Assembly: GCF_963668385.1 (NCBI RefSeq)
Contig: NZ_OY764327.1
Coordinates: 3,320,501-3,384,500, forward strand
DNA length: 64,000 nucleotides
Source: an uncultured Carboxylicivirga sp.
GTDB lineage: Bacteria > Bacteroidota > Bacteroidia > Bacteroidales > Marinilabiliaceae
Direction of reading: 5' to 3'
Every line of letters begins with the position of its first letter. Within the stretch, counting starts at the first letter, position 1. Both the position numbers and the translations under genes were made by a program. A model generated the notes under the pieces. It was not told the DNA's origin. It did no database searches and was given only the letters and a program-made list of their open reading frames with translations. This document shows positions 4,765 through 25,593 of this stretch, piece after piece.

Positions 4765-7700
4765 ATGCAACGTTTTTATCTTTTAGTATTCGTAATATTA
4801 TTGAGCATAAGCATTAAAGCTGAAAGGATTCTTGAGTTTAGTAAATTATCTGAAAAAGATGGTTTGCTCTCAAGCAGGGCTAATGCAATACTTCAGGATA
4901 GTAAAGGCTATATTTGGATTGGTACATGGAATGGTTTGAACAGGTATGATGGGCATGAACTCAAAGAGTATGTTCCTGATTTTAGTGATTCAACAACATT
5001 ATCAAACCGCGAGGTTGTTGCACTTTGCGAAGGCGCAAACGACAAACTTTGGATTGGAACCACATCAGGTTTAAATTGCCTGAATCTGCGTACCAATCAA
5101 ATGTGTTCATATCCCTTCAAAAATCGTATTGTTTCATTATTCGAAGATCAGGAAGGATTGGTTTGGGTTGGAAAGAAAGATGGAGGTTTAACCATATTGA
5201 ATCCGAAAACCGGAGAACGTGATGACTATTTCTTGGATATAACCGTTAGTGATATTTGTTACGATTCAAGAGGTATTTATTGGCTGGCTACTTATCAGGG
5301 ATTGGTTCGTTTTAACAAGGAAACCCGGAAATTTCGTAGTTACAAACCAGATGCTTTTAACGAAAATTCGATTAGTAACATTACTGTTACTCAAGTTAAG
5401 GAAGATGCTGATGGCCAATTATGGGTAGGTACCTGGGGTGGTGGTTTAAATCGTATAAAGGTTTCGGTCGATTCCGATGATTTACAAATTACACATTACG
5501 GTAAAGGAGAGGATAAAGGAGGACTGTCATCAGATGTGATTTACCGTATTTATATTGATGAGTTTAATAACATTTGGTGCGGAACATGGAGCGAAGGTTT
5601 AATAGTGATAGAACCTGATCAGCTTACTAAGACACCGTCGGAAATAGTTGTGCATAGTTACAAGCACAATGTTTATGATCAAAGCAGTCTTTCTAATAAT
5701 AATATATCATCACTATTGGTAGATCGTACGGGTGTTTTGTGGGTGGGGGCATTAACATTAAATCGTACATCTATTGTAAATAACGGTATTAATCGTTTTA
5801 AAATAGAAGGCGAAACCAACGGTGAGTTTGCTTATCGTAATGCACGATCATTTGCACAGCAAGATAATTATGTGTGGGTGGGAACGTCGGTTGAGTTAAA
5901 GCTTTATCAGAAATTTGGACATCAATATAAGTTTATAAAAGACCTGCCAAAAATTGCATATCATTTCGAGGGCGATCTTTATCAGTCCTCATCAATCATT
6001 GCACTCGAATACAATAGGTATGGTTTATGGGTTGGTACCGATGATGCCGGGTTGATTTATTATCCGGATAGTACAGCTTTAACTAAGAATAATCCTCAAT
6101 TTACTTATTTCAATACGGCTACTCACGTGGCTGTTCCGGGCAATAAGATTAGTACTTTGTTTAGCTCGCGTATTAATAAAAATGTATTGTGGGTAGGTAC
6201 TCAGCAAAATGGAATTGCTCGTCTTGAAATGGTTGATGGTAAAGTGCAAAGTACTTTTATTAAAGATGGCGAAAACGAAAAATGTTTGTCAGATAATAAC
6301 ATCAGAACAATTTATGAGGATGATGCCGGAATGATTTGGATTGGAACTCAAAACGGATTGAATTGTCTGGATCCAACCACAATGAATATCACAAAGTATT
6401 TTCATTCATACAATGACAATAGGTCGATTAACGACAATGTTGTTAATACCTTATATCAGGATAAAAGTGGAAACTTGTGGATTGGTACTAATTCGGGTTT
6501 AAACCGGCGATTAGTAAGACGTCTTTCTGATGCATCTGAACAAATTCGTTTTGAACATTATCCGCATGTGCAGGAAATTGGCAATACCATTATCGCCAAT
6601 ATTTTTGAGGATGAAGCTGGTCTGTTATGGATTAAACCATATAAAGGAATCGTAAAGTTTAATCCTCAAAAACAAAGGGTTGTAAGGAGTTACATGGCGA
6701 AAGAAAACTTAAATCTTTCGGCTGAATCGAATGCCGGCTTGCGTACTTCTGATGGAATGGTATTTCTGGGAGAAAATAATGGATTTATTTATTTCAATCC
6801 TGATAGTTTATATCAACATACTATTGCACCCAAGGTTTGTATTACAGATTGCATTGTGCTTAACGAAACATTGGTAAATCATCCGGATCGCGATAGGATT
6901 GTTGGAGATACACTTTTGCATTCTATTGCCTACTTAAGCGATTTAAAACTGTCGGATAAAGACCAGGTGATTACCTTTATTTTTTCGGCAATGGATTATA
7001 AAGATCCAAAGCGTAATGTATATGCATACTTTTTAGAAGGATATGATAATTTTTGGAATGAAGTAGGCAGACGTAACTCTGCAACTTATACAAATATTCC
7101 TCCTGGCGATTATGTTTTTCATGTTAAGGCTGCTAATAGTGATGAAACCTGGAGCGAAGAAAGTGCTGTTATTCGTTTTTCGGTAATGCCTCCGTGGTGG
7201 GAAACTATCTGGGCTAAGATAGCATATGGTGTTGTGATAATTCTGTTGGGCTATTTCTTTAAAAAATATTCGTTGATAAAAGTGAACGAAAAAAGTCGTA
7301 TCAAGTTAGAATTGATGCAGCGAGAGAAAGAACAGCATTTGAACGAATTGAAAACATTGTTTTTTACCGATATAACGCACGAATTTCGTACTCCATTAAC
7401 ACTTATTCAAGGCCCGGCTGAGGAACTTAAAAAGTTAGGGAAGGATTCGCCACTAATGGTCAAACAAGCCAATTTAATTCTCAAAAATACCAATCGATTA
7501 TTGCGTTTAGTTAATCAATTGATGGATTTCAGAAAATTAGATCGGGGTAAGATGGATTTACAATTGCAAACTTGCAATATATCCTATCTTATTAAGGAGA
7601 TACATGAGTCGTATAAAGCAATGGCTGATAATCGTTCTATTCAATTTAAGGCTGAACTGCCAGATAACGATATATTGGTTAACGTTGATGCCGATAAATT

Positions 7701-16076: not shown

Positions 16077-16390
16077 AGGCTTGCAGACCTGTGCAAGACT
16101 GCCCCGGAGGCTGGGGAAGGCGTGAAGATTGCCGCAAGCCTTCACTTTTTGAAAAAAAGTGCCTTGCACACTTGCGCAAGCCTTTCTTTTTGTTTGGGGA
16201 AGACATGAAGATTTGCGCAAGCCACTTTTTTAATTGTAGGGAAGGCTTAAACATTTGTTCAAGCCTTCAAATTAACAGAAAGAAAGGCTTGAAGGTTTGC
16301 GCAAGGCATATCTTGGTATGTTTTGAAGCCTTGCGCAAGTGTGCACGCCTTCACCGGAGATTAGATTAGTAATGCGCAAGTGCGCAAAGC
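16077..16390. repeat. Degenerate 42-bp tandem array of imperfect palindromes (array 1)
   Basis: About eight units follow each other with starts at 16077, 16118, 16159, 16201, 16243, 16285, 16327 and 16369 (period 41-42). The best-conserved half reads AGGCTTGAAGATTTGCGCAA followed by GCCTT; its outer parts AGGCTT/AAGCCT are complementary, so each unit can form a short hairpin. One unit has perfect 8-bp arms GAAGGCTT/AAGCCTTC (16241-16268). About 16 poorly conserved bases separate the palindromes. The period is a multiple of three, so a plus-strand frame (16091-16369) stays open and reads as a 14-residue repeat, but it has no start context or homology and I do not call it a gene. No cas or integrase gene is near. 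Confidence 0.8.
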
Positions 16391-16423
16391 AAAAAAAAAC
16401 CGCTTCTGACTTTTCAAAAGCGG
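16391..16423 (-). terminator. Terminator on the minus strand after the redox operon
   Basis: On the minus strand CCGCTTTTG...CAGAAGCGG is followed by nine Ts. It would end transcripts that leave the thioredoxin reductase gene and cross the MITE-like element. Confidence 0.72.
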
Positions 16424-18009: not shown

Positions 18010-19317
18010 TCAAATATTAAGTTCTGAGTATAATCCTATTCCTAATTCCAGTAATTCTTGTACGGGACGGCAGTCGGGCGAATTAATTTTACCTGTCTGA
18101 GTTTTGGCTACGGCCGTGCAGCCGCCTCCGCATGCCAGTTGTACTGCGCAATTGCGGCATTCAGCTATGGATAGTACATCGCGTTCTTCCCATTCTTCAA
18201 TTCTTTCTTCATCGAGTTTTACTTCGGGGTAAAACGTCCCCAGTTGATCGCCATGGTTGCCAACAGTTGCGGTACACGAGTATATTTTTCCGGTGTAATC
18301 AAAGGCCCATTCGGTTTTGGTTCCGGTGCACGAATCAAACAGAGGGTTGGGTAATTCACCATTTTCGAAAATGAATTTCGCAATGGAGAATGCCGGTTTA
18401 TGAAACTCTAATACTTCCGGATTTTCTTTGATGATAGAATAGATCTCCTGATACATTTCGATGCGCGAAAACAAGCGTTTATTGTTGGTTTGGCAGTGAT
18501 GCAACTCGTAGTTTCTTCCTAAAGCCGTTTTAAAAAGCGGGCTTTTTGTCCAGCCTTTTTCTATGGCATATTTTGCAAACTCAGGCAGATTGCTTACGTT
18601 TTCTTTATCGATGATCATTCGCAGATTAACGGGAATCTTATTCTTCAATAATGCATCAATACCTTCCGTTATTCGATCGAAGCTTCCCTTTCCGCCACGT
18701 AACATTCGGCGTGCATCGTGTACCTCCTGTGTTCCGTCAACTGTAACCTGAATCTCGCGGATGCTTCCCTTTTTTAGTACATCAATAAAATCAATCAGGT
18801 TATAACCGTTGGTAACAACTGCTATGTCTAAACCTCGCTTATTGGCTTCGCTGATGATGCGTTCAATACTTTCTTTTTTAGCTGAGTTATTCAGTAGAGG
18901 TTCGCCTCCAAAAATAGTGATGTACTTGCGTCGAGTGGCAAACCGACGATCGATGTAGTTGAAAAACGCATCAATCACTTCGTGCTTAACGGCTTCGTTG
19001 GGATTGGTATATTCATCCTGAAAGCAATACGAGCAATTAAAGTTACAGGCATACCAAGGGGTGAAGAAAAGCTGAACTTCGTCTTCATCACGGTCGTCGA
19101 TAAAATCGAGGTATTTGCTTTTAAAAAGCTGTTCTTCCTTTTTCGAATCAACGAGGTATCCTTTTTCAATCAGTTCATCGAGGTTGCCTGATTTATTCTT
19201 GAAAGCTTCAGCTTCGTGTGGCTCCATAATATCGGCATTGCCCGAAAGGGGGTTAACGATAAAGTAATTGTCGGAATTGGCAATTTTGGAGAATATGTTA
19301 TGTTTGGAGAAATCCAT
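18010..19317 (-). CDS. Radical SAM/SPASM peptide-maturase-like enzyme
   Basis: 435 aa. The radical SAM cluster motif is Cys91-x3-Cys95-x2-Cys98 (YACNFNCSYCFQDEY), followed by TIFGGEPLLN and VVTNGYNL, the usual SAM-binding strands. The C-terminal third is a SPASM region with FDSCTGTKTEWAFDYTGKIYSC and a Cys cluster at 387, 390, 396 and 400 (CRNCAVQLACGGGC) plus Cys416, expected to hold auxiliary Fe-S clusters. Residues ~10-70 (NYFIVNPLSGNADIMEPHEAE...EKGYLVD) resemble the PqqD-like leader-binding module found in RiPP maturases; this is a judgement by eye. A 31-residue Cys peptide lies immediately upstream on the same strand, the standard arrangement of precursor and maturase. I could not assign it to a named subfamily. 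Confidence 0.9.
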   Translation of the reverse strand: MDFSKHNIFSKIANSDNYFIVNPLSGNADIMEPHEAEAFKNKSGNLDELIEKGYLVDSKKEEQLFKSKYLDFIDDRDEDEVQLFFTPWYACNFNCSYCFQDEYTNPNEAVKHEVIDAFFNYIDRRFATRRKYITIFGGEPLLNNSAKKESIERIISEANKRGLDIAVVTNGYNLIDFIDVLKKGSIREIQVTVDGTQEVHDARRMLRGGKGSFDRITEGIDALLKNKIPVNLRMIIDKENVSNLPEFAKYAIEKGWTKSPLFKTALGRNYELHHCQTNNKRLFSRIEMYQEIYSIIKENPEVLEFHKPAFSIAKFIFENGELPNPLFDSCTGTKTEWAFDYTGKIYSCTATVGNHGDQLGTFYPEVKLDEERIEEWEERDVLSIAECRNCAVQLACGGGCTAVAKTQTGKINSPDCRPVQELLELGIGLYSELNI

Positions 19318-19338
19318 TTTTGATAATTTGGTTAAACA

Positions 19339-19365
19339 GGACCGACCTGCAAAACAAGTCGGCCC
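19339..19365 (-). promoter_or_regulatory. Stem-loop between the Cys peptide gene and the radical SAM gene
   Basis: Read on the minus strand, GGGCCGACTT pairs with AGGTCGGTCC over a 7-base loop. Two of the ten pairs are G-U, which work only in the minus-strand RNA. It lies between the peptide stop and the radical SAM start, with no strong U-run after it. It may be an attenuator that keeps peptide mRNA in excess over maturase mRNA. Confidence 0.6.
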
Positions 19366-19374
19366 CGATTAAAT

Positions 19375-19470
19375 TTAGTCGTGACAACCGGCAACTATTT
19401 TCGAGTTTTTAGCGCAACATTGTGCTACTTTGTTGTCACTCTTCTTAGCTTTCTTAACTAATGACTTCAT
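19375..19470 (-). CDS. 31-residue Cys-containing peptide, candidate RiPP precursor
   Basis: A small open frame starting at ATG 19470 with an A-rich upstream stretch (AATAATAATAAAA) typical of Bacteroidota translation starts. The peptide opens with a Lys-rich stretch (MKSLVKKAKKSDN) and ends VAQCCAKNSKIVAGCHD, with Cys at 18, 19 and 29. It is collinear with the ArsM-like methyltransferase 72 bases upstream and the radical SAM enzyme 57 bases downstream. Basic N-terminus, Cys core, tiny size and neighbouring SPASM enzyme together suggest a modified peptide or a metal/metalloid-binding peptide. It belongs to no family that I recognise. That it is translated is inference. Confidence 0.65.
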   Translation of the reverse strand: MKSLVKKAKKSDNKVAQCCAKNSKIVAGCHD

Positions 19471-19542
19471 TTTTATTATTATTTAGAAATTAAGAATCCT
19501 TGTTTGTTACCTATTAAGTTTTCAATTCTAAGAGTCTAGAAT

Positions 19543-20178
19543 TCAACCACAGCACTTCTTGCGGCCTGCAATGGTAAAGCTCACTACATCAATTTGTCCT
19601 TTAGGATAAGGTTTTGATTCTTCAATTATCTCGATATCAACAAAACCAACCTTCTGTAGTGTTTCCAGGTAATCGTCTTTAGTAGTAGCACCAGCCCAGC
19701 ATTCGGCAACCGCTTGTGCATCGTTTCGGTACTCTTCGGGTACTTCGGTTGTGGCGTATATATCGCTCACTACAAAACGTCCGCTGTTTTTTAAAATGCG
19801 GTTAATCTCGCTCCATACTTTAAATTTATCTTTAGCATGATTGATGGTACAATTGGATATGATTAAATCAACAGTGGCCGAATCTACTTTTATATCTTCC
19901 AGTTCCGATTTGCGAAACTCAACATTGGTAACTCCCAGTTTAGCTGCATTTTTTTCGGCCTTCGAAAGCATTCCTTCCGATACATCAATGCCTATAGCTA
20001 AACCATATTCACCCACTTCCTGGGCAAGTCGGATAACATCCGTTCCTCGTCCGCTGCCTAAATCAACACATACTTCACTCGGTTTAGCTTTTGAATATTC
20101 AATAGCCGATCCGCACGAAAGGCAGCAGTTGCCCTCGGCTAGTTCAGAATATCTGATTTCAATTTTCTGGGTGTTCAT
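19543..20178 (-). CDS. Short ArsM-like SAM-dependent methyltransferase
   Basis: 211 aa class I methyltransferase. The SAM-binding motif is VDLGSGRGTDVIRLAQEVG near 38-57, followed by GIDVSEGM. The segments IISNCTINHAKDKFKVWSEI (Cys110) and AECWAGATTKDDYLETL (Cys160) correspond to the regions that hold two of the three arsenic-binding Cys in arsenite methyltransferases; GNCCLSCGS (Cys18, 19, 22) could supply the third. The protein ends KKCCG, giving an extra Cys pair. It is shorter than typical ArsM (about 280-380 aa). No arsR, arsB/acr3 or arsC is near. Arsenite methylation, or methylation of a thiol or peptide in the adjacent radical SAM cluster, are both possible; the thioredoxins next door would suit the first. 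Confidence 0.75.
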   Translation of the reverse strand: MNTQKIEIRYSELAEGNCCLSCGSAIEYSKAKPSEVCVDLGSGRGTDVIRLAQEVGEYGLAIGIDVSEGMLSKAEKNAAKLGVTNVEFRKSELEDIKVDSATVDLIISNCTINHAKDKFKVWSEINRILKNSGRFVVSDIYATTEVPEEYRNDAQAVAECWAGATTKDDYLETLQKVGFVDIEIIEESKPYPKGQIDVVSFTIAGRKKCCG

Positions 20179-20399: not shown

Positions 20400-20828
20400 T
20401 TATGCCGATTGCTGATGCTTTTCTATTTCTTTTACCAAAAACTTATGTGTTTTAATGCCCACATATCGTTCTACTTCTTTGCCATCTTTAAATAAAATAA
20501 GTGTGGGTATGTTTCTAACCTTGTATTTGGCTGCTATGGGCTGATGATTATCAACATTAACCTTTGCTACTTTCGAACCCTTTTCCAACGATTCGGCCAC
20601 CTGGTTTAATACGGGCGACATCATTTTGCAAGGGCCACACCAGGGAGCCCAGAAATCAACCAAAGTAACACCTGATCTGATTTGTGTTTTAAAATTCTTA
20701 TTGTCTAATATTCTAATTTTTGCACTGGCAGGAGTGTCGGGCATATTTTTCATTTTTTTGTAGTTGATTACTACATAAACAGCTAGTGCCAATACAATAA
20801 TGCTGATGATTATTAATGTTGTGCTCAT
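20400..20828 (-). CDS. Membrane-anchored thioredoxin
   Basis: 142 aa. A single N-terminal hydrophobic helix (LIIISIIVLALAVYVVI, residues ~5-22) precedes a complete thioredoxin fold with WAPWCGPCKMMSPVL, the cis-Pro strand VRNIPTLILFKDGKEVERYVG and a C-terminal helix. It may face either side of the membrane. Its ATG overlaps the stop of the DUF1847 gene by 4 bases, so the two are translationally coupled. About 220 bases downstream on the same strand lies the ArsM-like gene. Probable thiol donor for the surrounding redox genes. Confidence 0.93.
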   Translation of the reverse strand: MSTTLIIISIIVLALAVYVVINYKKMKNMPDTPASAKIRILDNKNFKTQIRSGVTLVDFWAPWCGPCKMMSPVLNQVAESLEKGSKVAKVNVDNHQPIAAKYKVRNIPTLILFKDGKEVERYVGIKTHKFLVKEIEKHQQSA

Positions 20829-21322
20829 GATTTTGCGTTTTCGGTGTTTAATGCATCTAAAGGATGATGTTTTAGTTTACGATCTTTTACAGCTAGTGGG
20901 GTGACAGGTACCTTCGATTTAGCGTTGAAAATCATATCGTGCCCCACACATAAACCAATCATAATATTGAGCTCCGTTTCGTTCTGATGCAGGTATTCAG
21001 CCTGACCGGCCGGATTACACGATGTGCCTTTATAACCGGGTACCAAATCATTAAACTTTACTTTCCCTAGTTTACAATTGGCTTTCGCCACCTCTAAATG
21101 ATTTGAGGTAAGAATTTGCTCAAGTTTTTCTGTTTGTTTCTCAAAAGCAATGCAATTGGCAATTCCAACTTTCTTAATCCCTGCCTGATGACAGTAGGCA
21201 ATGATTTCGCTTACTCTGTCAATTTTCGGATTCAGCGAGTCTTCTGCAATCTTCAGAATTGATTTATCCTCTGCGTTGTAGAGTTTTATATAATCTTGAT
21301 TTTCACGCATTTTTTGTCTCAT
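20825..21322 (-). CDS. DUF1847 family predicted metal-binding protein
   Basis: 165 aa Cys-rich protein. It contains GTSCNPAGQAEYLHQNETELNIMIGLCVGHDMIF, VPVTPLAVKDRKLKHHPLDAL and further Cys at IAYCHQAGIKKVGIANCIAFE and KANCKLG, the pattern I associate with DUF1847, described as probably metal-binding. Function is unknown. It is the first gene of a two-gene unit with the membrane thioredoxin. A second in-frame Met four codons in (MRENQ) is an equally acceptable start. The link to sulfur or metalloid chemistry rests on its neighbours only. Confidence 0.82.
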   Translation of the reverse strand: MRQKMRENQDYIKLYNAEDKSILKIAEDSLNPKIDRVSEIIAYCHQAGIKKVGIANCIAFEKQTEKLEQILTSNHLEVAKANCKLGKVKFNDLVPGYKGTSCNPAGQAEYLHQNETELNIMIGLCVGHDMIFNAKSKVPVTPLAVKDRKLKHHPLDALNTENAKS

Positions 21323-21590: not shown

Positions 21591-22775
21591 TTACATTCCC
21601 GGAATTCGAGGAATACGATTCAGTTTAGAATTCTTAAAATAAAATCCCCAGGCTTTTTTCAACCAATGGCCTACAACAGGCATCATTATCATGGTTTCTT
21701 TTTTGTTGGTTCGAGAAACATATGCCGCTCCGTCACCCGAATCCATAACACAGATAATACTGATTTTATCGGTATAAACTTTGGTTTTATCAGTACCCAA
21801 AATTTGTTGATGTACATTATACGCAGCAACATCTGCCATTATCTCAGCCATGTGTCCTTGTTTGGCTGCCCATTTAGGCCCCATCATATCAGCCGAATCA
21901 CCAATGGCATAAATGTTTTCGAATCCTTCAACCTGGCAGGTTGCATGTGTTTTTACAAATCCCGATTCAGTTAAAGGCAAATCAGAATTCTGCAGAACCG
22001 AATGTCCCGATCCACCTGCAATAAAAATGATTAAATCACTTTCGAGCTTTTTGTCATCTTCAAACAATATCTCACCTTTATTAAATCCGAGTATTTTCTT
22101 ACCTACATGTTGGTTTATCTTATATCGTTTAAAGAACTTACTCAGATTTCCGTAGGCTTTGGTACCCATTTTTTTGCCCGGTTCGGCCATGGGTGCAAAA
22201 AAGTTTAGTTCGAATGAATCTAATAAGCCTTTTTTCTTTAGGTAAGTACTAATGTTGAATAGCAATTCAAAGGCTGGTCCGCCACGAACAACCGTTCCTT
22301 TTTCGTCTTTAGGGTTACCACCAAAACCAATGGCTATCTTACCATGTCCTAGTTGTATCAGTTTCTCTAGTTCATCTTTGATTTGCACTGACTGTTCAGG
22401 AGCACCACAAATGGAAAGAGTATTTTCAATGCCTTTAGCTTTTACTTTGTGCATTCCTAAAGCAATAAAAAGATAATCGTAGTCGATTTCGCTGTTTTGG
22501 AGTTGTACTTTGTTGTTTTTAGGATCGATTTTAACAACAGGATCGATAATTAAATCAAAGCCATGTTTTCTCTGAAGTTTGTCGAGTTTAACCGAGCTGT
22601 CATCAAAACTAATTCCATTAACAGGAATCCAGATGGAAATGGGATAAACAAAAAAGTAATCGCGGTTCGATACCAAGGTTACTTTATATCCTCTTTTTCT
22701 GAGTTTAATGGCTGCCTCAACACCAGCTATTCCTCCACCAAGTACTACAAAGTGTTTATTTGTGTTCGATCTCAT
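21591..22775 (-). CDS. Sulfide:quinone oxidoreductase-like flavoprotein
   Basis: 394 aa FAD-dependent pyridine-nucleotide-disulfide oxidoreductase fold. FAD motif VLGGGIAGVEAAIKLRKRG is at the N-terminus, YLFIALGMHKVKA and IYAIGDSADMMGP are the second and third FAD contacts, and the C-terminus VVGHWLKKAWGFYFKNSK is basic and amphipathic, as in membrane-bound SQR and NDH-2. Cys123 (SICGAPEQS) and Cys342 (IICVMDSGDG) lie where SQR has its first and third catalytic Cys; the region of the middle Cys reads VRGGPAFEL with none. It may oxidise sulfide by a two-Cys route or act on another thiol. Neighbours: TauE/SafE and YeiH exporters upstream, thioredoxin and DUF1847 downstream. Confidence 0.78.
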   Translation of the reverse strand: MRSNTNKHFVVLGGGIAGVEAAIKLRKRGYKVTLVSNRDYFFVYPISIWIPVNGISFDDSSVKLDKLQRKHGFDLIIDPVVKIDPKNNKVQLQNSEIDYDYLFIALGMHKVKAKGIENTLSICGAPEQSVQIKDELEKLIQLGHGKIAIGFGGNPKDEKGTVVRGGPAFELLFNISTYLKKKGLLDSFELNFFAPMAEPGKKMGTKAYGNLSKFFKRYKINQHVGKKILGFNKGEILFEDDKKLESDLIIFIAGGSGHSVLQNSDLPLTESGFVKTHATCQVEGFENIYAIGDSADMMGPKWAAKQGHMAEIMADVAAYNVHQQILGTDKTKVYTDKISIICVMDSGDGAAYVSRTNKKETMIMMPVVGHWLKKAWGFYFKNSKLNRIPRIPGM

Positions 22776-22991: not shown

Positions 22992-23708
22992 CTACTTAAT
23001 CAATAAAAAGATACTTACCATGATGGTAATGTATAAACTTATTTTTTTGAATAAAGCAGCTGGTAAAATTTGGTTTAAACGTTTGCCTACCACTGTTCCC
23101 AGCAATAGAATAGGTGTTATATATAAAGTCGTTAATAGCGATTGATTGGTTATCATTCCTAATTGGTAATATCCGATTATGGCAATGGTAGCTGATACAA
23201 TATTAAACCATGAGAATATTTCGCGAAATTCTTGATTATTTACATTAGCCATGTTTAAGAATAATGCCAAGGGAGGACCACTAACCGAGATGCTTCCGGT
23301 GAGGTAACCAATAAAAGCACCAGCCAGTTTGTACCATTTCTTCGAAATATTGAAGTTCATACTACGGTTCAGCAAAGTAATTAGTGATAAAATAATAAAG
23401 AAGACTCCTAAAAATTTAACCAGGAAACCTTCTGATATCACTTTTAAAGTGATGACTCCTAAAATGGTGAAAACACCACCGTAGATAATTAATGTTCTGA
23501 ATTTTTTGTTTACCAGTTTCTTCTCTTTTTTCTGAAGAACAATCAAAATTGATGAGATTAAATTACACATCATTAATATAGGTATCAGTTCTTTGGGTGA
23601 GTACCATATCATTAACAAAGGCAACGATACCAAAGCAAAACCAAAGCCTGTGATACCTTTAACCAAACTGGCCAATATTACAACTAAAAAACCTCCAACA
23701 TTAAGCAT
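22992..23708 (-). CDS. TauE/SafE (TSUP) family sulfite/organosulfur exporter
   Basis: 238 aa membrane protein with about eight hydrophobic segments. It has the TSUP repeats: VVILASLVKGITGFGFALVSLPLLMIW near the N-terminus (GxxGfGf) and LAGAFIGYLTGSISVSGPPLALFL in the second half. Start chosen at 23708, two bases after the yeiH stop; an earlier in-frame Met would overlap yeiH by 46 bases and add a polar tail. Members export sulfite, sulfoacetate or other sulfur anions. Joined to yeiH, it fits a sulfite-efflux unit under the adjacent LysR regulator. Confidence 0.88.
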   Translation of the reverse strand: MLNVGGFLVVILASLVKGITGFGFALVSLPLLMIWYSPKELIPILMMCNLISSILIVLQKKEKKLVNKKFRTLIIYGGVFTILGVITLKVISEGFLVKFLGVFFIILSLITLLNRSMNFNISKKWYKLAGAFIGYLTGSISVSGPPLALFLNMANVNNQEFREIFSWFNIVSATIAIIGYYQLGMITNQSLLTTLYITPILLLGTVVGKRLNQILPAALFKKISLYITIMVSIFLLIK

Positions 23709-23710
23709 AA

Positions 23711-24634
23711 TTATGATGTTAAGATTAAGAATGACCCCACTCCGATAATTAACCAAAGCGTGATGCCTAATATAAAACTTCTTGACCCGGATTGTTTAAT
23801 ACTTTGCATAGAAAAACCAGATCCGATTAAAAAAAGTGCCACTACAATTCCTCGTCTACCCAACCAGTTTAAATGAGTGTACGTTTCACTCATACCCGGC
23901 AATAGATTAGCAATTGCAATGGCCAGGGCGAACAATAGTATAAACCATGGGAAGCTAATTTTTCTACTGCCCTCTTTTTTGTTAAATAATGCAATAACTA
24001 TCGATAATGGAATAATCCATAATGCTCTTATTAATTTTACAGTGGTTGCTATCTGCAATGCTTCGGGCCCATATGCGGCTCCGGCACCTGTTACCGAACT
24101 GGTGTCGTGTATGGCAATGGCAGCCCAGTTTCCGAATACTTCCTGACTCATATCAAAATAATGACCAATGAACGGAAAAATAAGTAAAGCAACTGCGTTG
24201 AGTATGAATACCACAATCAGTGCCATTGAACTTTCGTTTTTTTCGCTGTTCAAAACGGGTGAAATAGCTGCAATTGCACTTCCTCCACAAATGGCTGTTC
24301 CGGCCGAAATAAGTAAAGCTATGTTGTTTTTAACTTTAAATAAACGTCCTAATAAAATACCACTTGTCATTACAACAACAACCGAAATGGCTGTTTCGAC
24401 AAAACCACTTTTCGATGCTTTTATCACTTCGCTTAGGCTCATTCCAAATCCCATTAAAACAATCGAATATTGTAATACTTGTGAAGTGTACTTGGTAATA
24501 TTTTCCTGCTTTATGCCAATAGCCGATAGTGCGATTCCTGCTATCAATGCAAGAGCTGGCGACATCATGGGTGTAAAACACAAGATGATAAATAGTAGGA
24601 ACAGATATTGACTATGTTGTTTTAGATAAGTCAT
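23711..24634 (-). CDS. yeiH: YeiH family putative sulfate/sulfite exporter
   Basis: 307 aa inner-membrane protein with about ten hydrophobic segments. It contains GIALSAIGIKQENITKYTSQVLQYSIVLMGFGMSL, the inverted-repeat motif ISAGTAICGGSAIAAISPVL (TaICGgSAI) and GNWAAIAIHDTSSVTGAGAAYGPEAL, which are characteristic of the YeiH/UPF0324 family. The E. coli homologue lies next to the LysR gene yeiE, linked to sulfite stress; here a LysR gene lies immediately upstream on the same strand and a TauE/SafE gene follows two bases downstream. Transport substrate is inferred. Confidence 0.9.
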   Translation of the reverse strand: MTYLKQHSQYLFLLFIILCFTPMMSPALALIAGIALSAIGIKQENITKYTSQVLQYSIVLMGFGMSLSEVIKASKSGFVETAISVVVVMTSGILLGRLFKVKNNIALLISAGTAICGGSAIAAISPVLNSEKNESSMALIVVFILNAVALLIFPFIGHYFDMSQEVFGNWAAIAIHDTSSVTGAGAAYGPEALQIATTVKLIRALWIIPLSIVIALFNKKEGSRKISFPWFILLFALAIAIANLLPGMSETYTHLNWLGRRGIVVALFLIGSGFSMQSIKQSGSRSFILGITLWLIIGVGSFLILTS

Positions 24635-24705
24635 GAGATTAATTTTGAAACAAAAATAAGCTCGTGATATAATTAAAACAAATAGTAAAAATTTATAGTC
24701 AATAA

Positions 24706-25593
24706 CTAAAAGTTATATTGACTAAGGTGATTCATAAATAATTCTACCAAATGACTAGGTTGTCCCTGATGTAACGCGAATCTTAGCTTACGAGGTATAT
24801 CAAAGCCTTTTACCGAAACTTGTACCAATTGATTCAAATAAATTTCGGTTGTAACTGCTTTATCAGAAAGAACAGCTATTCCATCAAAGTCTTTTAGAAA
24901 GTTTTTGATGGCTTCGGTACTCCCTAAATGAATCAATGTATTCAGGTTTTCGATATTCACTTCATTGCTTTGAAGTGCTTTTTTGATCACATCGAGTGTG
25001 CCCGATCCTTTTTCGCGCAATACCAGTGGAATTTCTTTAAAATCGGCCAGGGATATTGATTTTTGTTTGGCATAAATACTTTCTGAACCGGTTACCACAA
25101 TCAGTTCATCATCCATAAATGGCATATACTTAATGTTCGATTGCGATGAAGCATTTTCGACCAAGGCCATATCAATTTCATTTTTTATCAGCAATTGTTC
25201 CATCTCAAATGAGTTACCATTTGAGAGATAGAGTTCAATTTGCGGATATCGTTTATGAAAGCTAGCCATAGCTTTGGGTAAGAGGTATTGCGAAATGGTT
25301 GAACTGGCACCAATTTTTAACTCACCCATAAAAGTATCGTTAAGTCTGCCAATTTCAAATTCCAGTTCGCGGTATTGTTGCTCAACTTTTTTCAGATGAC
25401 TATAGGTAAGCTTGCCTGCCTCGGTGAGATAAATTTTATTCCCTTTTCTGTCGAACAAAGTAATGTTAAGTCGTCGTTCCAATTCTTTAATGTGCTTGGT
25501 AATAGCAGGCTGACTGATAAACAACTCATCAGCAGCTTTGGAAAAGCTCAGGTTTTCGGCAACACTTAAAAAAACTTTATCGCGGTAATCCAT
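24706..25593 (-). CDS. LysR-type transcriptional regulator (YeiE/CysB-like context)
   Basis: 295 aa. Winged HTH at residues 1-60: FLSVAENLSFSKAADELFISQPAITKHIKELERRLNITLFDR. A substrate-binding domain follows from ~90 (GELKIGASSTISQYLLPKAMASF; LVLREKGSGTLDVI), where a small effector would bind. It precedes yeiH by 71 bases on the same strand, so it may be co-transcribed or may control the yeiH promoter. By analogy with YeiE it could sense sulfite or cysteine precursors, but the sequence alone does not show the ligand. Confidence 0.94.
   Translation of the reverse strand: MDYRDKVFLSVAENLSFSKAADELFISQPAITKHIKELERRLNITLFDRKGNKIYLTEAGKLTYSHLKKVEQQYRELEFEIGRLNDTFMGELKIGASSTISQYLLPKAMASFHKRYPQIELYLSNGNSFEMEQLLIKNEIDMALVENASSQSNIKYMPFMDDELIVVTGSESIYAKQKSISLADFKEIPLVLREKGSGTLDVIKKALQSNEVNIENLNTLIHLGSTEAIKNFLKDFDGIAVLSDKAVTTEIYLNQLVQVSVKGFDIPRKLRFALHQGQPSHLVELFMNHLSQYNF

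Follow-up and report, generated by a model that had tools for sequence, protein, structure and literature searches.

A short cysteine peptide encoded with a radical SAM/SPASM enzyme, an ArsM-like methyltransferase and a thioredoxin reductase: a candidate for an undescribed RiPP family

Introduction

A conserved Cys-containing precursor encoded beside its enzyme is a feature of the SCIFF/ranthipeptide systems, in which the SCIFF maturase CteB/ScfB combines an RRE with radical SAM and SPASM domains. These systems are widely spread and argued to be non-antimicrobial (PMC8326336). The ranthipeptide maturase PapB links a Cys with an Asp or Glu (PMC9413430). For arsenic methyltransferases, C72, C174 and C224 of CmArsM are given as As-binding sites (PMC3877260).

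The locus compared with these here lies in the window, meaning the whole 64,000-nt stretch of DNA analysed. Reading along the minus strand, a methyltransferase gene is followed by a peptide gene, a radical SAM/SPASM gene, and a thioredoxin/thioredoxin-reductase fusion. The initial annotation had described the first three as collinear, and all were recovered on the minus strand at the same positions. The fusion, absent from that annotation, begins 4 nt past the radical SAM gene and is the fourth gene of the cassette; the other gaps are 72 nt (methyltransferase-peptide) and 57 nt (peptide-radical SAM). With only 31 codons, the peptide gene is short enough to be missed. The features are as follows, with the basis for each in parentheses where given.

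20178-19543, minus strand: short ArsM-like SAM methyltransferase, 211 aa (NCBIfam, Pfam, PDB matches)
19470-19375, minus strand: putative precursor peptide gene, 31 aa, MKSLVKKAKKSDNKVAQCCAKNSKIVAGCHD (ORF list, relatives, selection)
19332..19372, minus strand: stem-loop in the peptide-radical SAM gap (folding)
19317-18010, minus strand: radical SAM/SPASM enzyme, putative peptide maturase, 435 aa (NCBIfam, Pfam, AlphaFold model)
18005-16719, minus strand: 428-aa fusion of a thioredoxin domain (CPPC) with a thioredoxin reductase (CATC)
20400..20828, minus strand: thioredoxin, 142 aa, accessory neighbour (N-terminal hydrophobic stretch by eye)
20825..21322, minus strand: DUF1847 protein, accessory neighbour
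21591..22775, minus strand: FAD-dependent oxidoreductase, accessory neighbour

The 142-aa thioredoxin is present in the loci of some relatives only. The FAD oxidoreductase resembles type III sulfide:quinone reductase and TIGR03169, scoring under both cut-offs, and occupies the same position in three relatives (L037, L040, L041).

Results

Distribution of the cassette

Related loci were taken as the best 80 of at least 399 relatives found at a loose E-value, 79 of them with upstream sequence. When these were checked for loci without the short ORF, 76 of the 79 proved to have the peptide directly 5' of the radical SAM gene, and the remaining three genomes to encode it elsewhere, beside the methyltransferase. 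This is the genetic linkage of a short precursor ORF to a peptide-modifying enzyme that characterizes RiPPs, in trans in the three exceptions. In one draft genome (L055) there is no peptide match and the radical SAM gene begins at a contig edge.

Among 393 genomes of the order, the peptide, the radical SAM gene and the methyltransferase ortholog (for which at most seven candidates per genome were scored) are found together in an identical set of 48, and the ortholog occurs only alongside the peptide (48/48). There are 49 genomes with the peptide, 48 of them with the radical SAM gene (Fisher p 1.7e-59). The other, G106, is 99% complete and lacks both the radical SAM gene and the methyltransferase ortholog; TusA and DsrE genes are near its orphan peptide. 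A radical SAM fragment is found by itself in one genome.

Within the best 80 loci the methyltransferase is 5' in 73, and a thioredoxin reductase is present in 77, directly 3' in 76, some with a DUF1847 gene between. One locus (L096) has the peptide, with no methyltransferase within 2.7 kb upstream. In a clade of three (L059, L063, L087; support 100/86), the cassette is in two pairs, methyltransferase with peptide and radical SAM gene with thioredoxin reductase; here the methyltransferase gene keeps the peptide gene as its neighbour and the radical SAM gene lies apart. The cassette is patchy in the window's own genus (3 of 14 genomes, including its own), and its carriers are anaerobes of several phyla (Bacteroidota, spirochaetes and Ignavibacteria, the labels being submitters' titles).

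Most flanking genes have thiol-related, sulfur-related or unknown roles. DUF1847 homologs occur in 27 of the best 80 loci, and DUF302, DUF6132, OsmC, Sulf_transp/rhodanese and thioredoxin genes are neighbours in some, the Sulf_transp protein in three; an ABC-ATPase-like cluster (c29, named by eye) is found in five of the 80. Neither a protease nor a dedicated exporter is a constant member among the largest neighbour clusters and nearest flanks, and no leader protease was seen around the cassette.

The peptide

The window peptide has an MKSLVKK N-terminus, a Lys-rich variable linker and a near-invariant 16-residue C-terminus, AQCCAKNSKIVAGCHD. The same design, with a linker of varying length, recurs across 84 distinct sequences, in which the N-terminus is mostly MKSL[IV]KK and the C-terminus A-[QL]-C-C-A-K-x-S-x4-G-C-H-[DN]. 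As a rule they have three cysteines in 30-39 residues; L064 has four. The two parts of a RiPP precursor are thus present, the N-terminus as putative leader and the last 16 residues as putative core. Since some G loci come from the same genomes as GTDB loci, the 111 peptide rows were counted as distinct DNA (92) and peptide (84) sequences, leaving out L029, L035 and L074; L035 has a frameshift within an A-run.

The collection was made with a strict pattern, so its invariance is partly by construction; under a looser rule, CC-x(4,12)-GC, 74 loci matched and the same letters were found in 74/74. A chance ORF was rejected on the same rule, which picks out 74 ORFs 5' of the radical SAM gene and 0 of 7181 other short ORFs (80 homologous loci spanning 1.0 Mb, with 7255 ORFs that start at ATG and encode 18-90 aa on either strand). 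The other reading frames were also rejected, having stops in 92/92 and 80/92 sequences.

The frame was checked for an absence of selection, and both leader and core were found to evolve under purifying selection. pN/pS is 0.136 over the last 16 codons and 0.239 over the first 7, values that are crude since pS, at 0.85, is near saturation; three same-genus comparisons gave 3, 3 and 4 synonymous changes and 0 non-synonymous. The initial annotation could place the peptide in no named RiPP class, which holds against NCBIfam of June 2026. A literature search for the motif AQCCAK and two variants found no paper, and one for GCHD gave only unrelated abbreviations among the matches listed.

The radical SAM/SPASM enzyme

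Fifty-three enzymes were aligned (the window's, those of 50 of the 80 GTDB loci and of two G loci); a smaller alignment covered the window and 29 loci out of the first 36. Fragments were left out, as were the loci with internal stops, namely L008, L015, L033, L054, L102 and, from L008's genome, L044. SPASM domains have a seven-cysteine pattern, and all 53 enzymes carry this pattern (C330-x12-G343-x4-C348 / C387-x2-C390-x5-C396-x3-C400 / C416 in the window) as well as the CxxxCxxC radical SAM core (C91-x3-C95-x2-C98) and an extra invariant C275. They are thus radical SAM/SPASM proteins (PF04055, 81 bits for the window enzyme), and both cysteine motifs noticed by eye in the window extend to its relatives.

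In the AlphaFold model (mean pLDDT 91.7), residues 8-76 are predicted to form three strands followed by three helices (block pLDDT 89-97), giving a predicted RRE-like module at about residues 1-76. The PqqD-like N-terminal module of the initial annotation agrees with this model, although Pfam gives no PqqD match. The best PDB match is CteB (5why/5wgg; E 2.1e-17, TM 0.68), and SuiB and ChlB also match, some chains being peptide-bound. Membership of any named NCBIfam family was rejected, every score being far under its cut-off.

The hairpin downstream of the peptide

The 57-nt gap between the peptide and radical SAM genes has an MFE of -25.0 kcal/mol. When gaps of at least 30 nt, trimmed at 120 nt, were folded, 46 of 67 peptide-radical SAM gaps had a dinucleotide-shuffle z < -2, vs. 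6 of 46 methyltransferase-peptide gaps. A hairpin lies 3' of the peptide gene in most relatives, including three with the radical SAM gene elsewhere (L131-L133), and probably acts on the peptide transcript as a 3'-end, partial-terminator or processing element. An attenuator peptide was rejected, as the hairpin remains with the peptide in these three loci.

The methyltransferase and its arsenic context

The methyltransferases compared were 65 of 69 clustered ORFs that passed a length filter, plus the window's. C18, C19, C22, C37, C110 and C160 are present in 65 or 66 of these 66. Three of them, C22, C110 and C160, are in 66/66 and align with C72, C174 and C224 of CmArsM (4fr0), so by alignment the three As(III)-binding cysteines of ArsM are kept throughout. 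All five PDB matches at E <= 1e-10 are arsenic methyltransferases. The cassette proteins nevertheless form their own ortholog group (E <= 2.8e-60, next match 8.3e-44). The accompanying thioredoxin reductases have C[AS]TC in 70 of 71 ORFs.

The arsenite pump ACR3 is encoded in 40 of the 48 carriers, but shares the radical SAM contig only in the single-contig G000, where it is 1.4 Mb off. For the earlier suggestion of a metalloid ligand, the As-binding cysteines speak in favour and the location of ACR3 against. A standard ars operon context was rejected on flanking families and ACR3 location, with G133, G237, G397 and G457 as exceptions.

Discussion

Proposed role of the cassette

With gene order, co-occurrence, selection, motifs and predicted fold established, the cassette is likely to be the biosynthetic set for an undescribed RiPP family, in which the radical SAM enzyme modifies the core to give a cytosolic thiol product. 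This supports the initial reading of a short RiPP-type precursor beside a radical SAM enzyme, since homologous loci keep the short ORF and its frame is under selection. The peptide is very probably the substrate of the enzyme. The N-terminal RRE-like module would bind the MKSL[IV]KK end, and the C-terminal core A-Q-C-C-A-K-x-S-K-x3-G-C-H-D would be modified, most likely by a one-cysteine thioether such as CteB makes, leaving the other thiols free; by this analogy, thioether chemistry has about an even chance. The product most likely remains cytosolic and works there through its thiols, either as a carrier or as a redox peptide, because there is no constant protease or dedicated exporter and the core hardly varies across phyla. 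The thioredoxin/thioredoxin-reductase fusion would keep the cysteines of peptide and methyltransferase reduced, and the ArsM-like enzyme would methylate the peptide or a peptide-held atom (sulfur, arsenic or selenium). As a whole, the family is best read as undescribed and probably cytosolic, and a cytosolic role in thiol, sulfur or metalloid chemistry has about an even chance. Counting against this reading are the orphan peptide of G106, the draft genome of L055 with no peptide match, L096 with no methyltransferase close by, the patchy spread of the cassette, the failure to see a leader protease, and the transport genes in some flanks.

Many sacti- and ranthipeptides are exported antimicrobials or signals made by the same enzyme superfamily, and one study reportedly tied SCIFF-derived ranthipeptides to quorum sensing. 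Such a product is improbable here, where no exporter or immunity gene is constant in the largest neighbour clusters and nearest flanks, the core is near-invariant across phyla, and the thioredoxin reductase is nearly constant. Slightly less probable again is an unmodified thiol or metal-binding mini-protein, with the radical SAM enzyme acting on something else. The orphan peptide of G106 would fit this, but the other 48 peptide genomes all have the radical SAM gene, and a variable linker stands between the conserved N-terminal motif and the core. The strong hairpin in most peptide-radical SAM gaps could be expected of a regulatory leader peptide whose translation controls it and hence radical SAM expression. 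This is very improbable, as peptide and hairpin remain with the methyltransferase where the radical SAM gene has moved (L131-L133), and Ala, Lys, Ser, Gly, His and Asp are conserved beyond the cysteine codons while synonymous sites are free.

Metalloid handling is a possible but unlikely alternative. The peptide would bind As(III), Sb(III) or Se through its three thiols, as a ligand or scaffold. It would be a metalloid-carrying RiPP whose bound atom is methylated by the ArsM-like enzyme, with the radical SAM enzyme tailoring the peptide and Trx/TrxR driving the cycle. Radical SAM and ArsM pairs do act in the arsenosugar and arsinothricin pathways, and the PDB matches and invariant cysteines of the methyltransferase point the same way. 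A further ArsM-like match (E <= 1e-25) is found in 25 of 48 carriers vs. 83 of 345 other genomes (p 1.1e-4), but this link may reflect a common habitat, and it would make plain As methylation by the cassette redundant in those 25. An ArsR-type HTH_5 regulator lies just 5' of the methyltransferase in at least three of 48 genomes, all of one genus (G133, G237, G397), and in G457 the methyltransferase ortholog shares ~6 kb of one contig with HTH_5, a broken ACR3 match and an ArsM-like gene. However, the HTH_5 protein seen whole (L054, the G133 genome) lacks the ELCVCDL-type As motif of ArsR-type proteins, which sense persulfides as well. Against metalloid handling there are also the near-absence of ACR3 from cassette contigs, a methyltransferase score under the ArsM cut-off (197 vs. 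263 bits), and the lack of any arsenic family among the 25 most frequent Pfam families, out of 89 found for the 134 nearest flanking proteins; the NCBIfam tally of flanking proteins covered the best 25 of 619.

Returning to a RiPP with a cytosolic thiol product, the constancy of the cassette across phyla suggests that it probably serves a basic role rather than as a weapon. A specific but doubtful version is a ribosomally encoded thiol carrier, in which the cysteines of the radical SAM-tailored peptide would carry a soft atom, be it sulfane sulfur, arsenic or selenium, the ArsM-type enzyme would methylate the atom, and the Trx/TrxR fusion would recycle the carrier. If true, the peptide would be the gene-encoded equivalent of bacillithiol-type low-molecular-weight thiols or of the sulfur carrier DsrC. 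The family would add to the small number of RiPPs that work inside the cell in the manner of cofactors, such as PQQ and mycofactocin, and its putative substrate can be checked together with an enzyme, a methyltransferase and a reductase. To our knowledge, it would be the first RiPP tied to an ArsM-type methyltransferase; a literature search, with subscription journals mostly outside it, gave no arsenic, ArsM or TrxR system with a radical SAM peptide among the matches listed. The accessible part of a Bacteroidales RiPP mining paper has 0 occurrences of thioredoxin, arsen or Marinilabil (PMC10352776). The question raised is what task an arsenic-type methyltransferase has beside a conserved cysteine peptide when the arsenite pump is encoded elsewhere.

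Comparison with known systems

The methyltransferase shares its core and three As-binding cysteines with ArsM/AS3MT (NF008823; 4fr0, 5evj), but scores 197.2 bits against a cut-off of 263 for NF008823, has 211 aa where four of the five PDB matches have 377-387 (321 in 8xt7), and often has a Cys-rich tail. The peptide has two cysteines in the C-x(9)-G-C spacing near its C-terminus, as in the sulfur carriers DsrC/TusE, and TusA and DsrE genes lie near the orphan peptide of G106; the likeness may be chance. DsrC folds into a protein of ~100 residues and has no known radical SAM maturase. A literature search on DsrC trisulfides gave no paper.

For the enzyme, the best NCBIfam models, covering most of the protein, are CefB (Cys-every-fifth, NF038107; 159 bits, cut-off 600) and the RiPP maturase TIGR04463 (157.6 bits, cut-off 525). 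These match 53/53 enzymes (best E 1.8e-50), but the window peptide has no Cys repeat like that of CefB. A search at E <= 1e-90 through 247 genomes of the phylum detected neither; its controls gave TIGR04463 in 2 of 14 genomes, none above cut-off, and NF038107 in none. PapB (NF047865) is third (130.3 bits, cut-off 340); it makes Cys-Asp/Glu links, and the window peptide ends in C-H-D.

The SCIFF maturase is the nearest solved fold, with the same RRE, radical SAM and SPASM architecture to the extent that the RRE-like module predicted in the window enzyme corresponds to the RRE of CteB. TIGR03974 matches 41 of 53 enzymes at E <= 1e-20 (best 3.8e-29), although the window enzyme scores 93.6 bits where the cut-off is 425. 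SCIFF peptides have six cysteines in forty-five residues, in contrast to three in 30-39 here with another leader and core. Their hosts are Clostridia rather than Bacteroidota, spirochaetes and Ignavibacteria, and the nearly constant company of an ArsM-like methyltransferase and a thioredoxin reductase sets the present cassette apart from SCIFF.

Gene Order in the Window

The genes of the region, all on the minus strand, run 5′ to 3′ as an SQR-like FAD oxidoreductase, DUF1847, thioredoxin, methyltransferase, peptide, radical SAM, and thioredoxin reductase (TrxR) fusion, the last four forming the cassette:

20178–19543, minus strand, ArsM-like methyltransferase
19470–19375, minus strand, peptide, 31 aa
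19317–18010, minus strand, radical SAM/SPASM enzyme
18005–16719, minus strand, thioredoxin/thioredoxin-reductase fusion

Gaps are 72 nt (methyltransferase to peptide), 57 nt (peptide to radical SAM gene), and 4 nt (radical SAM gene to TrxR), in a genome that is a single contig of 6.27 Mb. The RiPP-type locus proposed in the initial annotation, a peptide between methyltransferase and maturase, is borne out: it represents a new RiPP-like family, near-invariant and set in a four-gene cassette that hardly varies. Farther upstream (22992–25593) are TauE/SafE-like and Cons_hypoth698 proteins and a LysR regulator. An intergenic array (16113–16391) of diverged ~42 bp repeats, several carrying a TTGCGCAAG-like palindrome, lies on the far side of the cassette, downstream of TrxR.

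Occurrence of the Peptide and Its Partners

Searches with the radical SAM protein gave matches in 3 of 14 genomes of the genus and 5 of 71 of the family (own genome included in both), and in 50 of 393 of the order at E ≤ 1e-40. A GTDB scan queried with an alignment of 30 sequences supplied eighty loci, the best 80 of at least 399 relatives; the top match was “Marinilabiliaceae bacterium A049” (radical SAM protein 89% identity). In 74 of the 80, a short ORF with CC-x(4,12)-GC lies 5′ of the radical SAM gene; the other 7181 short ORFs in these loci all lack the pattern. Reading by eye places the peptide upstream in L064 and L068 also, without an ATG start, for 76 of 79 loci; the 80th locus, L055, has no upstream sequence, and the peptide was not found on searching its genome. 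Three loci (L059, L063, and L087) lack both peptide and methyltransferase beside the radical SAM gene; in each of these genomes the peptide gene is at another place, directly 3′ of the same kind of methyltransferase. They form one clade in the radical SAM tree (support 100/86), so a single rearrangement can account for all three. The L035 peptide gene has a frameshift inside an A-run, either sequencing error or decay.

By submitter titles, the loci comprise 62 Bacteroidota, 10 spirochaetes, 4 Ignavibacteria, 1 Fibrobacteres, 1 Acidobacteria, and 2 unlabelled, all MAGs except L037. A tree of 53 proteins groups by phylum, with a few exceptions. The named groups and habitats suggest that the hosts are anaerobes.

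Across the 393 genomes, the peptide as protein query was found in 49 at E ≤ 0.0021 (the next match, G132 at 0.00275, has three internal stops and was left out of the count), the radical SAM family in 49 (G326, at 29% identity, was left out), and the methyltransferase ortholog in 48 (E ≤ 2.8e-60; next matches 8.3e-44 and weaker). All three share the same 48 genomes; for peptide against radical SAM gene, Fisher p = 1.7e-59 (393 genomes). G330 has a radical SAM gene without the peptide, as a fragment at a contig end, and G106 has the peptide without a radical SAM gene.

This orphan peptide (locus L121, G106:C3:113000–127000; 7296–7394, minus strand), which also lacks the ortholog methyltransferase, is directly 3′ of a different class I methyltransferase; its neighbours include DsrE, TusA, 4Fe-4S, and FAD/Fe-S proteins and FlpD, with Fe-S oxidoreductase genes and a peroxiredoxin nearby. 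G378 has a second, stand-alone peptide copy (L122, G378:C7, 6612–6725, plus strand) on a contig other than the cassette's, in surroundings that include DsrE-like (Pfam) and DUF302-like, OsmC-like, and class V aminotransferase-like (by eye) proteins.

Peptide Conservation and the Following Hairpin

Of 111 peptide rows, three mis-trimmed ones were left out; the rest amount to 92 different sequences at the DNA level and 84 different peptides, 30–39 residues long, with a Lys-rich linker of variable length. All 84 peptides have A, C, C, A, K, S, G, C, and H at fixed positions of their final 16 residues, where Q is present in 82, D in 83, and the second Lys in 65; the strict collection pattern pre-sets some of these letters, but the looser CC-x(4,12)-GC rule gave no others. 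The N-terminus is also conserved (K2 71/84, S3 69, L4 79, I or V5 74, K6 63, K7 74). pN/pS is 0.136 for the core and 0.239 for the first seven codons, and three same-genus comparisons had 3, 3, and 4 synonymous changes with no amino-acid changes.

The gap between peptide and radical SAM genes forms a hairpin (–25.0 kcal/mol in the window). Dinucleotide z is below –2 for 46 of 67 such gaps (median –3.31), and for 6 of 46 methyltransferase–peptide gaps (median –0.40). The hairpin follows the peptide in 3/3 of the rearranged clade, though no radical SAM gene comes next; the 70 nt after the G106 peptide and the second G378 copy fold weakly (–8.3 and –14.1). The hairpin is read here as a 3′-end or partial terminator that favours the peptide over the maturase, as is common in operons of precursor and maturase genes.

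Neighbouring Genes

TrxR is found in 77 of the 80 loci: in 76 it comes after the radical SAM gene, no more than ~0.65 kb away, and in L074 it is 2 kb upstream; in the three without it the sequence ends within 357 nt. Of 71 ORFs called downstream, C[AS]TC is kept in 70 and a thioredoxin-type motif in 64. An upstream methyltransferase is present in 73 loci; the other seven comprise three whose sequence stops within 803 nt, the three of the rearranged clade, and L096, which has none within 2.7 kb upstream.

Pfam families were tallied for the 134 nearest flanking proteins of 90–480 aa, taking no more than one on each side of a locus and leaving out the cassette clusters; those that come up most often are DUF1847 (23), DUF302 (14), Pvc16_N (6), Zn_ribbon_IS1595 (5), DUF6132 (5), and Nitro_FeMo-Co (4). 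Elsewhere in these loci, OsmC, a YgaP-like TM protein, a Sulf_transp/rhodanese protein, and aminotransferase class V recur in 3–5 loci each. From this gene content, together with that around the G106 peptide, the surroundings are read as a thiol and sulfur setting, with many neighbours lacking an assigned role. DUF1847, the commonest extra cassette neighbour, is at 20825–21322 in the window and in 27 of the 80 related loci.

The Methyltransferase and Arsenic

All five solved chains matching the methyltransferase at E ≤ 1e-10 are arsenic methyltransferases. All 66 aligned orthologs have C22, C37, C110, and C160, and 65 have C18 and C19; C22, C110, and C160 align with CmArsM C72, C174, and C224, given as As-binding sites in PMC3877260. 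The protein is below the ArsM cut-off (197 vs. 263 bits). Its orthologs, at least 46% identical to the window's protein, form a separate group found in the 393 genomes only alongside the peptide. With at most 7 candidates scored per genome, 25 of the 48 genomes carrying the cassette have a further match at E ≤ 1e-25, and 83 of the other 345 have an ArsM-like match (p = 1.1e-4).

Of the 48 cassette genomes, 40 have an ACR3 (TIGR00832) match, above cut-off in 39; it shares the radical SAM gene's contig only in single-contig G000, 1.4 Mb apart. ArsR-type HTH_5 proteins are in 48/48, and also in 14/14 control genomes. In at least three genomes (G133, G237, and G397, one genus) an HTH_5 regulator gene lies 0.16–0.34 kb upstream of the cassette methyltransferase:

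L054:6115–6399 (genome = G133's), HTH_5 regulator
G237:C138:10054–10188, HTH_5 regulator
G397:C196:44528–44665, HTH_5 regulator

The full L054 protein has cysteines in its tail and no ELCVCDL, the motif of arsenic sensing. The methyltransferase ortholog of G457 is at the start of a contig on which HTH_5, an ArsM-like gene, and a broken match to ACR3 lie within ~6 kb; this genome has its peptide and radical SAM genes on a different contig. The 25 commonest of the 89 Pfam families in the 134 flanking proteins include no arsenic family. The cassette may be linked to arsenic.

The Radical SAM Enzyme and Comparison with Known Systems

CxxxCxxC and C-x(9-15)-G-x4-C / C-x2-C-x5-C-x3-C / C, the latter taken to be SPASM, are kept in 53/53 aligned proteins. 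The AlphaFold model (mean pLDDT 91.7, pTM 0.89) has three strands and then three helices at residues 8–76, presumably an RRE topology. An extra Cys, C275, is invariant in both radical SAM alignments (window plus 29 loci; 53 proteins) and sits in 271–275, the sole enzyme segment with predicted pLDDT under 50; it is a possible substrate or cluster ligand.

Genetics and the predicted fold make it most likely that the peptide leader docks on the enzyme, binding its RRE-like module. The radical SAM enzyme would then make a bond on the Cys-rich tail, most likely a thioether by analogy with CteB. Gene context points, as the most likely biological role, to a peptide whose remaining thiols would stay free and be held reduced by TrxR, and the methyltransferase, the partner remaining with the peptide gene, would methylate the peptide or a peptide-bound atom.

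CteB, the SCIFF maturase, is the closest solved fold by Foldseek (5why_B, E 2.1e-17, TM 0.68), followed by anSME, SuiB, and ChlB; a profile search concurs (5wgg, E 1.4e-19). The top NCBIfam models are both under cut-off (CefB 159 bits of 600, TIGR04463 157.6 of 525), and the best E over 53 members is 1.8e-50. A search of 247 genomes of the phylum at E ≤ 1e-90 turned up neither CefB (NF038107) nor TIGR04463, an absence that counts as weak because the controls barely matched (NF038107 nowhere, TIGR04463 in 2/14 genomes, none above cut-off). The C-x(9)-G-C spacing of the peptide may be akin to that in the C-terminal arm of DsrC. Peptide and SPASM maturase together are classed here as a RiPP system outside every named class.
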